Shown piece after piece: positions 18,047-47,769 of a stretch of 64,000 nt of DNA. How positions within the stretch are numbered: the stretch's first letter is position 1; each line of letters opens with the position of its first letter. The notes under the pieces were generated by a model. The model made no database searches and was not told the DNA's origin. It saw only the letters and a list, made by a program, of their open reading frames with translations. The stretch is taken from assembly GCA_016776605.1 (NCBI GenBank), contig JADHTB010000012.1, forward strand, positions 1 to 64,000. Direction: 5' to 3'. The stretch is from Alphaproteobacteria bacterium. Its GTDB lineage: Bacteria > Pseudomonadota > Alphaproteobacteria > GCA-2731375. The position numbers and the translations under genes are program-made.

Positions 18047-18059
18047 TTCAATACGGGGT

Positions 18060-18115
18060 CAATACGGGGACACAATACTTATATAAGTCGATATAAGTAT
18101 TGTGTCCCCGTATTG
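18060..18115. repeat. orphan REP-type palindrome of the RAYT family
   Basis: Two 25-base arms (18060-18084, 18091-18115), perfect inverted repeats, contain the core GGGGACACAATACTTATAT. The same core forms the palindromes flanking the transposase at 45.5-46.4 kb. The site is the gap between two convergent genes. TCAATACGGGG occurs twice in tandem at its left (18048-18058, 18059-18069). Confidence 0.88.
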
Positions 18116-43978: not shown

Positions 43979-45478
43979 ATGATGACAATCGTAAGAAAAT
44001 TTGGCTACGCCGCGACTGTAATCGCCATGGCAGCCGTTGCCGCCCTGCCGTTCGGGGCCCAGGCGGCCAAGAATTCCGTCAACATCGCCATGACCCTGGA
44101 ACCACCTGGGCTGGACCCCCGCGCCAACGCGGCCGCGGCGATTGGTCAAATCGCGCTGTATAATATTTATGAGAACCTGACCCACATCAATCAGGACGCC
44201 ACGGTCAGCCCCATGCTGGCGAAAAGCTGGTCAATCTCCGATGACCGGCTGGTCTATACCTTCAACCTACTCAAGGGCGTCAAGTTTCACGACGGCACCG
44301 ATTTTACCTCGGCGGATGTGAAGTACACCTTCGAGGCCAACGCGGCGGAAGGCAGCAAGATCAAGCGCAAGAAGCGTTTCGTGAACATGGCGAAGATCGA
44401 GACGCCGAACGCCAACACGGTGCGCATCACCTTGAAGAAGCCCCGGTCCATGTTCCTGTTCTGGATGGGTGAAAGCACAGCCGTCATCGTCGGCAAGGAA
44501 TCGGCGGCAACCAATGCCACCAAACCGGTCGGCACCGGCCCCTTCAAGTTCGTCAGTTGGGTCAAGGGCGACAGTGTCGTGATGGAAAAGAACCCGAATT
44601 ACCGCGACGCGGGCTCGGTCAAGCTGGCCAAGATCAAGTATCGCTTCATCAATGATCAGGCGGCACAGGTCGCCGCCATGATGTCGGGTGATCTGGATCT
44701 GATTCCCTTCTCCCGTGCTTCGGCCGGTCTGGGTGCCTTGCAGTCTAACCCGGATATCAAGGTTTCGTTTGGCACCACGGAAGGCGAGACCATCCTGTCC
44801 ACCAACAACAAGCATCCGGCTTTGTCCAAGTTGAAGGTGCGTCAGGCGATCGCCCATGCCATCGACCGCAAGGAAATCATCGACGGCGCCATGTTCGGCG
44901 CGGGTATCCCTATCGGCAGCCATTTTGCCCCTCATAATCCCGACTATCTGGATCTGACCGGCACCTATCCCCTGGACCGAGCGAAATCCAAGGCTCTATT
45001 GGCCGAGGCGGGTTATGGCGACGGTTTGGCTCTGTCGTTGAAGTTGCCCCCGACCGGTTATGCCCGGGAAGGCGGCCAGATCGTGGCCCAGCAATTGAAC
45101 AAGGCTGGTTTCAAAATCACCATCGAGAACGTGGAATGGGCCGTCTGGTTGGCGCAGGTCTACAAGCAAAAGACCTATGATTTGTCCATCGTCTCTCACG
45201 TGGAGCCCATGGATATCGGCATTTATGCCCGGCCCGGCTATTACTTCCAATACGACAACAAGGAATTCAACGGCATCATGGAAAAGGCCGACGGTGCCTC
45301 TGATCCGGCCATGCGTTCAAAATATCTGAAAATGGCGCAGCGGAAACTGGCCAAGGACGCGGTCAACGGCTTTTTGTTCCAACTGGCCAAGACCACGGTG
45401 CGCAAGAAGAACCTGATGGGCGTGTGGACAAGCTCGCCCATGTTCGTCAACGACATGCGCACGGTGTACTGGAAGTAA
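43979..45478 (+). CDS. ABC transporter substrate-binding protein, family 5
   Basis: A 499-residue periplasmic dipeptide/oligopeptide-type binding protein. The Sec signal peptide ends near AQA-AK (MAAVAALPFGAQAAKN). SBP_bac_5 motifs are LTHINQDATVSPMLAKSW, YTFNLLKGVKFHDGTDFTSADVKYTFE and PTGYAREGGQIVAQQL. ATG 43982 is an alternative start by one codon. No permease or ATPase genes follow; a strong terminator comes next, so it either shares a distant transporter or is an orphan. The adjacent P1 peptidase suggests that peptides are the ligand, an inference. Confidence 0.93.
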   Translation: MMTIVRKFGYAATVIAMAAVAALPFGAQAAKNSVNIAMTLEPPGLDPRANAAAAIGQIALYNIYENLTHINQDATVSPMLAKSWSISDDRLVYTFNLLKGVKFHDGTDFTSADVKYTFEANAAEGSKIKRKKRFVNMAKIETPNANTVRITLKKPRSMFLFWMGESTAVIVGKESAATNATKPVGTGPFKFVSWVKGDSVVMEKNPNYRDAGSVKLAKIKYRFINDQAAQVAAMMSGDLDLIPFSRASAGLGALQSNPDIKVSFGTTEGETILSTNNKHPALSKLKVRQAIAHAIDRKEIIDGAMFGAGIPIGSHFAPHNPDYLDLTGTYPLDRAKSKALLAEAGYGDGLALSLKLPPTGYAREGGQIVAQQLNKAGFKITIENVEWAVWLAQVYKQKTYDLSIVSHVEPMDIGIYARPGYYFQYDNKEFNGIMEKADGASDPAMRSKYLKMAQRKLAKDAVNGFLFQLAKTTVRKKNLMGVWTSSPMFVNDMRTVYWK

Positions 45479-45501: not shown

Positions 45502-45539
45502 AGGCGGCGGCGACCAGTCCGGGCCCGCCGCCTTTTTTT
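45502..45539 (+). terminator. intrinsic terminator after the binding-protein gene
   Basis: GGCGGCGG (45503-45510) pairs with CCGCCGCC (45525-45532) and is followed directly by seven T (45533-45539). The T-run may be the source of the outer arm of the adjacent REP-type palindrome. Confidence 0.92.
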
Positions 45540-45548
45540 ACGGGGGCA

Positions 45549-45610
45549 CTTTTTTACGGGGACACAATACTTATATCGGTCGATATAAGTATTGTGTCCC
45601 CGTAAAAAAG
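45549..45610. repeat. REP-type palindrome at the 3' side of the RAYT gene
   Basis: Twenty-eight-base arms (45549-45576, 45583-45610), extended by two more pairs around a GT centre, form a 62-base perfect hairpin. The arms contain the core GGGGACACAATACTTATAT and end with CTTTTTTAC/GTAAAAAAG. TTTTTTACGGGG also occurs directly upstream at 45534-45545. Confidence 0.92.
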
Positions 45611-45621
45611 GCGTATGAAAA

Positions 45622-46293
45622 TTAAATCTTTTGCGGGCGCCTGTTTTTTCGTCCGGGTTTGCCTTTTCGCAGAGTTCGGCCGGTCTGCGTTTCCAGGTCC
45701 TGCAAAAAACTCTCCGAACCCAGCGGTCGACCCGTACGCTCGCCGCCGCGTATGGCAGCCGCCTCGTCGTCCGCCAAGCCCTGGGCCAGGAACGCCGGCC
45801 AGTCCGGCCTCGCCTCTAGCAAGGGGGTCACGCGCACGACGCCGTCGTTCTCGCCCGCCAGATGCGCCCGGGCCGACGACCAGCGCCAGTCCTCGGCCCG
45901 CCGCGTCAAACCCGCCAGTACCGGGTTTAGCTCCACATACCGGGCCGCGGCCAGCATATGGCGCTCATCCATGGGGCAGGAGGCAAACCGCCCCTGCCAC
46001 AAATTGCCCTTCCAGCCTTTTTGCGTATTGATGTGCCGGGTATAGCGGCGATGCGCCTCCTGCAAGGTATTGTGCAGGCCGTCTTCGTCATCGGGCAGCA
46101 ACATGAGGTGCACGTGGTTGGGCATCAGGCAATAGGCCCAGATCTCCGTGCCCGCCTCGCCCGCGTGGTGCGAAAGCAGATCAAGGTAATGGCGATAGTC
46201 GCCATCGGAGAAGAACACATCCTGCCGCCTGTTGCCGCGCTGGGTAACATGATGGGGTAGCCTGGGTATTACAACGCGCGCTATCCGTGCCAT
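45622..46293 (-). CDS. REP-associated tyrosine transposase (RAYT, Y1/HUH)
   Basis: A 223-residue single-stranded-DNA transposase of the IS200-like Y1 class. MARIARVVIPRLPHHVTQRG is the typical start. CLMPNHVHLMLLP carries the metal-binding HVH (60-62), and Tyr119 in AARYVELNPVLAG is the catalytic Tyr. WRWSSARAHL is the RAYT C-terminal motif. Such enzymes spread REP palindromes. Palindromes with a shared core flank the gene: 11 bases beyond its stop, and 17 bases before its start. The catalytic residues are intact, and nothing shows whether it still moves. Confidence 0.93.
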   Translation of the reverse strand: MARIARVVIPRLPHHVTQRGNRRQDVFFSDGDYRHYLDLLSHHAGEAGTEIWAYCLMPNHVHLMLLPDDEDGLHNTLQEAHRRYTRHINTQKGWKGNLWQGRFASCPMDERHMLAAARYVELNPVLAGLTRRAEDWRWSSARAHLAGENDGVVRVTPLLEARPDWPAFLAQGLADDEAAAIRGGERTGRPLGSESFLQDLETQTGRTLRKGKPGRKNRRPQKI

Positions 46294-46310
46294 GGGCCCA
46301 GGTTAATGCG

Positions 46311-46370
46311 TTTAATAGGGGGACACAATACTTATATCGGTTGTTATAAGTATTGTGTCCCCCTATTAAA
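46311..46370. repeat. REP-type palindrome at the 5' side of the RAYT gene
   Basis: Perfect 26-base arms (46311-46336, 46345-46370) end with TTTAATAG/CTATTAAA and contain GGGGACACAATACTTATA. The right arm includes the TAA stop of the PaaK-like gene, so the outer arm sequence matches that gene's end. Confidence 0.92.
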
Positions 46371-47769
46371 AGCGCTCGTCGATCAGGCGCAGAGGCTTTT
46401 GCCGGCTTTCGATGCCGGTCAGTTCGGCCAGGGCGCCGGGTTTGGCGAAGGCGACGCCAACCGCCACGCCGGTCTTTTGCCGCAGAATTTCCCGGTAGGT
46501 GTCCGCCAGGGCCGGGCCGCCACTGTTATCCGATATTTCAAAGGTCACGGTCATTTCGTCGCGGCCTTGTGGGTCCCGCCGCACCCGGCAGATGAACTCG
46601 CCGTTGAATTCCCGCCGTTCGCTCAACATGGCGCCGATGGCCTGGGGGAATACGTTAATGCCGCGCAGCTTGACCATGTTGTCGCTGCGGCCCAGGAAAC
46701 CTTCGATGCGGCGCAGGTTCAGGGCCGATGGCGCGGCATCGGTGCGCAGGGCGGATACATCATGGGTGTTAAAACGGATGATCGGATAGATGTCGTCCTT
46801 GAACAGCACCGTGTCGACCATGTCGCCAGTGGCGCCGTCCGCCAGGGGCTGACCGGTATCAATGTCGCAGATTTCCAGATAATGGGCATCTTCCATGATG
46901 TACAGGCCGCCTTTTTCCGGGCCTTCGCCGGCGATCAAACCGGTATCGCCCACGCCGTACCAATCAAATATTTTGGCCCCGCCCCAGGCCCGGGACAGGG
47001 CGATATTATCCTCGCGCCCCATGTGGCCGGAAATCATCCGGATGTTGATGTCCCGGCCTGGTTCCAGGCCCTGTTCCCGGGCCACCTCGGCCAGATGTTT
47101 GATATAGTCGGCGAAGCCCACCAGCACGGTGACGCCGAAATCCTGCATCTGGGCCACCTGCTGCACCGACCGGGTCTCGATCCCCGTACCGGCGGGCAGA
47201 AAAATCGAATTTGTCCAATGCACCACCGCTTCCCGGATATAGTGCCCGCCGTTGACCATGCCGTGGCCGTAGACCGACTGCACCACGTCGTCGGGTGCCA
47301 GGCCTTGCAGCAGATAGGCCCGGGCGACCAATAGATTTTGTATCTCGCGGCTGCGCGGCCCGAATAGCAATACCTGGGGGCGGCCGGTGGTGCCCGAAGT
47401 GGTGTGCAGGATCACCGGCGGGCGCTCGCCCTCCGCATAGGTCTCCATGCCATGAAAATCACCAAAGGGCGGATGCGCCGCGATGGATGCCATGATGTCC
47501 GATTTATCGAACGTCGGCAGCTTGGTGATATCATCCAGACCGCCGATATCGCCCGCCTCCAGCCCCCTGGCGCCCCACAGGCGTTGATAGAAGGGCACTT
47601 TCCAGGCCTGCCGCATAAGGCTTGCAAAACGCCCCTCCTGCAGGGCCCGCAACTCGTCGCGGCTGATCGCCTCGAAACGGCGCAGGAACGCCGGCCCAAT
47701 GGGAAATTCATCGCTCAGGCGGGAGAGGTCGCCGCGGTTGAAATAATTCGGCTGGTCGGTCATTGCCAT
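46366..47769 (-). CDS. phenylacetate-CoA ligase-like AMP-forming ligase
   Basis: A 467-residue adenylate-forming enzyme of the PaaK type. The ATP-binding loop is LHTTSGTTGRPQVLLFG, with YGVGDTGLIAGEG as the adenine-binding motif and LGRSDNMVKLRGINVFPQAI as the conserved hinge to the small C-terminal domain. It would activate an aromatic or small acid to its CoA ester. It overlaps the racemase-like gene by one base (TAATG), implying coupled translation. No phenylacetate (paa) genes accompany it, so the substrate is open. Its stop codon lies in a RAYT palindrome arm. Confidence 0.88.
   Translation of the reverse strand: MAMTDQPNYFNRGDLSRLSDEFPIGPAFLRRFEAISRDELRALQEGRFASLMRQAWKVPFYQRLWGARGLEAGDIGGLDDITKLPTFDKSDIMASIAAHPPFGDFHGMETYAEGERPPVILHTTSGTTGRPQVLLFGPRSREIQNLLVARAYLLQGLAPDDVVQSVYGHGMVNGGHYIREAVVHWTNSIFLPAGTGIETRSVQQVAQMQDFGVTVLVGFADYIKHLAEVAREQGLEPGRDINIRMISGHMGREDNIALSRAWGGAKIFDWYGVGDTGLIAGEGPEKGGLYIMEDAHYLEICDIDTGQPLADGATGDMVDTVLFKDDIYPIIRFNTHDVSALRTDAAPSALNLRRIEGFLGRSDNMVKLRGINVFPQAIGAMLSERREFNGEFICRVRRDPQGRDEMTVTFEISDNSGGPALADTYREILRQKTGVAVGVAFAKPGALAELTGIESRQKPLRLIDERF

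Follow-up and report, generated by a model that had tools for sequence, protein, structure and literature searches.

Site-specific inverted hexamers at the palindromic ends of a TIRYT-type transposase element: possible fold-back copying of the target

A transposase gene between two palindromes

The window analysed here is a stretch of 64,000 nucleotides, in which a gene for a Y1 HUH transposase of the RAYT/TIRYT type (45622–46293, minus strand, 223 amino acids) lies intact between two palindromes that share the core GGGGACACAATACTTATAT; this arrangement can be read directly from the letters and agrees with the original prediction for the locus. The left palindrome (45549–45610) is built from the outer arm CTTTTTTAC, the core, and their mirror, and its two arms (45549–45578 and 45581–45610) are 30 nt long and 100% complementary. 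In the right palindrome (46308–46373), the arms (46308–46336 and 46345–46373) are 29 nt long and 97% complementary. A third palindrome of the same family is found at 18060–18115, where it stands without a transposase gene. The outer arms of the three palindromes are paired as CTTTTTTAC/GTAAAAAAG, TTTAATAG/CTATTAAA, and CAATAC/GTATTG, and the outer hexamer (X6) is the same on both sides of each, namely TTTTAC, TAATAG, and CAATAC, respectively. When a 19-base core was searched for in the window with up to three mismatches, it was found at 18066–18084/18091–18109, 45558–45576/45583–45601, and 46319–46337/46344–46362 (the last arm with one mismatch), while 100 shuffles of the window gave no match.

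Each outer arm at the transposase gene takes in sequence from its neighbour (a presumed terminator on the left, a coding end on the right), as noted in the original prediction. Upstream of the left palindrome lies an open reading frame (43979–45478, plus strand) that we take to encode a solute-binding-protein-like product, followed by a G+C-rich inverted repeat with a T-run on its 3' side; this is a terminator by its look, and the left outer arm includes its T-run. On the other side, the right arm overlaps the stop codon of an open reading frame (46366–47769, minus strand) that was called PaaK-like in the original prediction, and the right outer arm includes the 3' end of that gene (TTTTAA, i.e., Phe-stop). 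Furthermore, two extra tandem copies of arm and G-run were found that the original prediction does not list. One of them (TTTTTTACGGGGGCAC, 45534–45549, its T-run being that of the upstream terminator) lies outside the left palindrome and precedes TTTTTTACGGGGACAC; the other (CAATACGGGGT, 18049–18059, by direct reading) lies outside the left arm of the palindrome at 18.0 kb and precedes CAATACGGGGACAC.

The transposase contains Y1_Tnp (E 1.6e-11) as its sole Pfam domain at E ≤ 0.001, with no match at that threshold to the C-terminal helix-turn-helix-like domain of TIRYT subclass 2.1. It scores 71.6 bits against the NCBIfam model REP_Tyr_transpos, which is below the cut-off of 80, and it is matched by sequence to the solved TnpArep structure 4er8 (E 1.4e-6). 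The NHVH and YVELNP motifs are intact, NHVH and the Tyr of YVELNP being invariant in an alignment of the window protein with three related proteins, and WQ at residues 99–100 was taken as the W motif. Relatives of the transposase were kept at 80 loci, in records named as several phyla.

Outer arms in the genome of the window and in other genomes

In the genome to which the window belongs (G000; 4.6 Mb, 44 contigs, 93% complete), the core is matched 19 times forward and 18 times reverse at up to two mismatches. Paired up, these matches amount to 18 intact palindromes; a half copy at C11:1671 has no partner and was not counted as a site. Outside the core, the two ends of a site are complementary over a mean of 7.0 bases (range 4–11), compared with 1.46 when the left arm is set against the right arm of another site (306 pairs), and 0 of 20,000 permutations reached the real mean; the predicted complementarity of the two ends at each site is thereby borne out, with an identical hexamer on both sides at 15 of the 18. 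From position -1 to -6 the two sides agree at 100, 100, 100, 100, 94, and 89% of the sites and at -7 at 56%, the corresponding values for mixed pairs at -1 to -7 being 30, 100, 100, 50, 75, 36, and 43%. Because agreement falls from 89 to 56% between -6 and -7, where mixed pairs agree at 36 and 43%, the site-specific part of the arm is about six bases long. Longer runs are largely chance extension, and the complementarity beyond six agreeing bases (1.47 versus 0.88 bases) is not clearly site-specific. All 18 sites have T at -3 and A at -2, the other positions vary, and the foot of the hairpin reads GGGG after T-A-N. The prediction that the outermost 6–9 bp differ at every copy therefore holds for the variability of the arms (11 distinct left hexamers among 18 sites) and not for every copy, since AATTAT, TAATAG, and TAATAC recur between sites.

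Such recurrence would be expected if the hexamer were the element's own, that is, if sub-families with symmetric ends were inherited and the choice of target were either unspecific or guided by the arms. At 13 of the 18 sites, however, the two arms share one and the same 17-base core sequence, and yet these 13 carry eight different left hexamers. The reading draws further support from genomes outside the window's family, where the arms of G240, G323, and G135 are nearly constant per genome and match within a site no better than between sites, and from AATTCC-type hexamers that recur in Thiocapsa and Allochromatium loci. Two observations on element-free sites, described in the next section, speak against it as well: the T-run and the Phe-stop are present there, and the arm of the C33 copy followed by GCCCC resembles, by eye, G002, which has no element at that place. 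Taken together, we consider inherited arms fairly unlikely for the family in the window, though still a serious alternative.

Fetched loci of eight other genomes were scanned, of which six (G002, G006, G007, G010, G011, and G025) gave 20 palindromes and two (G030 and G045), searched likewise, gave none. With the first G of the core taken as the starting point, the run in these 20 palindromes averages 6.2 bases versus 1.69 in mixed pairs from the same genome; none of 20,000 permutations within genomes reached 6.2, although the run is 0 at four of the 20. In G240, which was chosen for its many copies, no site-specific match was detected among 15 palindromes (3.93 versus 3.79, with 3.93 attained in 7,650 of 20,000 permutations); most of its arms end in AATAA, and the palindromes are embedded in a mosaic of other repeats. 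The same was observed for 13 palindromes in another six members of the class (G021, G103, G135, G238, G323, and G324), with 3.69 versus 3.43 in mixed pairs of the same genome (6,576 of 20,000 permutations), a comparison of low power as only three of these genomes have more than one palindrome. In these genomes, where arms hardly vary within a genome, they may be inherited. Arms that agree without being site-specific thus occur outside the family of the window, which we count with the case of non-complementary arms that the original prediction had named as speaking against copying. Across the class, GGGGACA...TGTCCCC was found in 50 of 385 genomes, many of them with single matches that may be due to chance.

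The comparison was extended to the transposase loci, 37 of which were used because ends of the GGGGACA type could be recognised on either side and the flanks were complete; the other 43 of the 80 lacked a TIR score of 12 or the 30-base flanks. Here, the gene separates the ends by 0.7–1.3 kb, and the outer runs average 2.92 bases, compared with 0.62 when loci are mixed (0 of 20,000 permutations), with at least five bases at 14 loci and zero at 11. Agreement drops from 59 to 30% between -6 and -7, and in mixed loci from 49 to 27%. Since each transposase locus has its own enzyme, enzyme-specific target motifs alone could produce this six-base pattern, and the argument therefore rests solely on the tests made within single genomes. 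As a separate observation, L243 and L225 (Thiocapsa roseopersicina and Allochromatium humboldtianum) contain hexamer arrays of the AATTCC or AGTTCC type together with GGGGACAGT(T/A)TACTTAATTCC repeats, and truncated pieces of the element lie between the repeated hexamers.

An extra copy of the arm was counted wherever its last five bases are repeated within the preceding 25. This was the case at seven of the 18 G000 sites (one of them on both sides), with 0.3 and 1.3 expected for the two sides from the arms of other sites, and at 22 of the 37 transposase loci (five on both sides), with 1.2 and 1.4 expected. At C14:129619 of G000, GAGG replaces GGGG in both arms as well as in an outer extra copy, which fits bases that are derived from the target.

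It could also be argued that the flanks were unrelated at landing and that template-switching during replication of the quasipalindrome later brought one outer arm into agreement with its partner. In the available excerpts of the literature, template switching is reported to homogenise the arms of inverted repeats (e.g., PMC8604942 and PMC8794818), and some changes within the core are indeed symmetric (C24 and C33 in G000, GGGGCCAC in G006, and GGGGACAT in G240). Later symmetrisation would moreover account for the fact that each of the gene-flanking palindromes mirrors its own outer flank. Such a process would not be expected to stop near six bases, though, nor to give the same six-base pattern where the ends are separated by a whole gene (unless that pattern is due to target motifs), and the extra tandem copies would be left unexplained; we judge this process unlikely, though still a serious alternative, as the source of the matching arms.

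Empty sites and the origin of the outer arms

With 3 kb around the element at 45.5–46.3 kb as the query, both flanks were matched in all 10 same-genus genomes, and the six in which the flanks are neighbours (G007, G002, G008, G006, G001, and G009) were aligned; the alignment left out G003, with flanks 2.4 kb apart, and G004, G005, and G010, with flanks on different contigs. Neither the gene nor a palindrome is present at the site in four of the six (G007, G002, G008, and G006). In G007, the flanks are 1 base apart and the block 45540–46365 is absent from the orthologous site. Alternatively, the block may have been lost in the relatives instead of gained in G000. The site carries palindromes of another core (CGGTGACG) in G001, with arms of 13 bases and one mismatch, and in G009, with arms that agree in their last two bases only (both by eye). 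A sister palindrome family with the CGGTGACG-type core was also noted at L071, L075, L099, and L100 in G001 and G009, where it likewise occurs beside a TIRYT-like gene.

The T-run after the inverted repeat is found in five of the six aligned genomes (G009 reads GATATTTATTAC), and the Phe-stop of the PaaK-like gene is present as TTT-TAA in G007, while G006, G008, and G001 use different codons for it (by eye). Because the T-run and the Phe-stop occur in genomes without the block, both outer arms are in part old. The inner arms belong to the block that is missing from the relatives. At their final bases (AC and TAG), the two outer arms have no counterpart in the empty sites of the aligned same-genus genomes. 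These results agree with the predicted copying of flanking host sequence into inverted orientation as far as the T-run, the Phe-stop, and the inner arms are concerned. By the arm statistics, the copied length would be about six bases instead of an open-ended stretch.

Complementary six-base arms would arise without any copying if the element inserted at the centre of pre-existing 12-bp palindromes (X6-X6'), and IS1272 is reported, in the accessible text of PMC5678879, to target inverted repeats without a target-site duplication (TSD). The window, however, contains no fitting 12-base palindrome as against 643 [ATC]WWTAN half-sites on its two strands, and none was found in 67,684 bases (overlapping) of other loci from the same genome. 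About 4.3 such targets per genome are predicted by a Markov model of the window, which may give too low a count for A/T-rich intergenic sequence; because the 15 occupied sites with identical hexamers exceed this supply, ready-made targets are disfavoured. Since the inner arms are not found in the empty sites at 45.5–46.3 kb either, this explanation appears very improbable.

For single palindromes, no base-exact empty site was obtained when the flanks of 16 of the 18 copies were compared with the same-genus genomes, ten sites being aligned or read out; the remaining two copies are those at 45.5–46.3 kb, whose shared flanks were compared separately as described above. Such sites were not found because the intergenic sequence is too diverged or the gene order is broken. 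Two hints were gained by eye. At C1:425344, 17 bases outside the core lie between a stop codon and the next conserved stretch, compared with 10 in G007 and 23 in G002, and where the C33 arm with GCCCC resembles G002, the two are equally far from the conserved stretch that follows. A search of plasmid, phage, and viral collections for nearly identical relatives without the element gave nothing usable.

Several observations concern the surroundings of individual copies. The left and right neighbour genes of the palindrome at 18060–18115 are on different contigs in all nine same-genus draft genomes in which both were found, and the genes flanking C24:134498 are on different contigs in G007 and 0.65–15 kb apart in five other genomes; the palindromes may mark gene-order breakpoints. 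L001 (G000 C1:258228) is a solo palindrome between two genes that in G001 and G009 flank a full transposase unit, whereas in its G010 counterpart the right-hand gene alone adjoins such a unit (comparison loci L088, L099, and L100). This suggests either that the gene was lost from between the palindromes or that landing was repeated at one site. A G+C-rich repeat of about 80 bp, found at L082 (17227–17307), in the right flank of G000 C10:82118, and at many places in the same-genus genomes, is apparently a separate repeat family.

Fold-back copying of the target and comparison with known systems

The explanation that we favour, with a probability somewhat short of even, is that the locus holds a TIRtron (with a TIRYT transposase and GGGGWSAS-type inverted ends) that has short gene-less palindromic derivatives, and that about six target bases come to lie on both sides of it in inverted orientation. 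From the anatomy, the family statistics, and one empty site, which are established, we infer a mechanism of the kind that the original prediction had already offered as an inference (hairpin-templated extension). An element of this family would land beside an A/T-rich hexamer (NWWTAN) that ends up directly 5' of its GGGG. In line with the chemistry of the HUH family, the enzyme would cut a single-stranded target after X6 and join X6 to the 5' GGGG end of the element. The ends 5' GGGGACA... and ...TGTCCCC 3' would then pair as a stem, with a few bases or the whole gene between them, as the anatomy suggests. The free 3' CCCC end would be extended by a few bases with X6 as the template, giving X6', which would finally be joined to the downstream target. 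Slippage on the G-run could leave the extra X-GG copies that are observed.

In favour of copying are the site-specificity of the arms in the window's own genome and in six related genomes, the six-base limit, the empty site, the GAGG site, the extra copies, and the rarity of palindromic 12-mers. Against it stand the non-specific arms of G240 and the six further genomes, the zero runs at four of 20 palindromes and 11 of 37 loci, the G009 arms, and the fact that both gene-flanking palindromes mirror their own outer flank, which is not obviously given by one insertion. That a class of HUH-transposase elements generates an inverted target-site duplication of about six bases by fold-back synthesis, with element and target forming a longer hairpin and slippage producing tandem X-GG copies, is a tentative proposal to which we grant a substantial but minority chance. 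Usual transposons leave direct target duplications or none, and an inverted duplication of a hexamer, if true, would suggest that single-strand transposition involves a new end-joining step. It would also help to explain the origin and upkeep of perfect genomic palindromes, provide a sequence signature by which TIRYT insertions can be recognised and oriented, and make the spread of REP-like repeats testable.

Elements of the IS200/IS605 family (e.g., IS608 and ISDra2) have the HUH/Y1 single-strand chemistry in common with the element described here, and they insert beside a short target motif, to which T(-3) and A(-2) would correspond. Unlike in that family, the two ends of the window element look alike and the hexamer is found on both sides in inverted orientation. 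Its tyrosine motif also differs, being Y-NP (YVELNP) instead of the Y---Q given for subclass 1.1 in the accessible text of PMC6006769. Quasipalindrome template-switch mutation, as far as the sources seen describe it, likewise makes one arm of an inverted repeat a copy of its partner but has neither a tie to a transposase nor a fixed length. The inverted-repeat-replacing transposition of IS1272 (PMC5678879, accessible text) resembles our case in the inverted repeats at the insertion site, the lack of a direct TSD, and tandem duplications at one end; its targets, however, are reported to be existing inverted repeats, which look too rare in the genome of the window. Among the matches listed for the RAYT, REP, TIRYT, TnpAREP, and quasipalindrome literature (titles and the beginnings of abstracts, with subscription journals, figures, and supplements mostly outside), no site-specific inverted target hexamer is described, and its novelty is provisional. 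The phrase "inverted target site duplication" is used there, in the text seen, for a fungal Tc1-Mariner insertion, and GGGGACA in PMC4853749 is a primer only.

The original prediction had called the gene a RAYT and compared the locus with known REP/RAYT systems. The GTAG REP/RAYT (TnpAREP) elements have a related transposase, as the match to 4er8 indicates, and consist of short intergenic palindromes. The window element differs from them in that it has no GT[AG]G foot and ends in GGGGACAC, in the REP_Tyr_transpos score below the cut-off, and in the proposed copying of the target, which is not described for TnpAREP in the sources as seen. A closer counterpart is found in the TIRYT genes, which according to the text seen of Di Nocera et al. 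2013 (PMC3733652) are flanked by inverted repeats, some with GGGGWSAS, the repeats of some TIRs also occurring elsewhere in the genome as dimers or clusters. In the accessible part of Quentin et al. 2018 (PMC6006769), 20 of 26 TIRYT examples belong to subclass 2.1, near which no REP-like structures are reported and which is characterised by the motifs NHVH or NH[YF]H, W[EQ] or FQ, and YIELNP or Y[IV]HLNP and by a median length of 238 aa. The NHVH, WQ, and 223 aa of the window protein fit this subclass, and YVELNP is one I-to-V step away from a listed motif. The site-specific inverted flank hexamer and the extra X-GG copies are features that the seen parts of these two papers do not describe. 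Nevertheless, with a Y1 HUH transposase of the RAYT kind and the GGGGWSAS-type end GGGGACAC on both sides of its gene, the locus appears, by its ends and its transposase, to fit the TIRYT/TIRtron type and not GTAG REP/RAYT.
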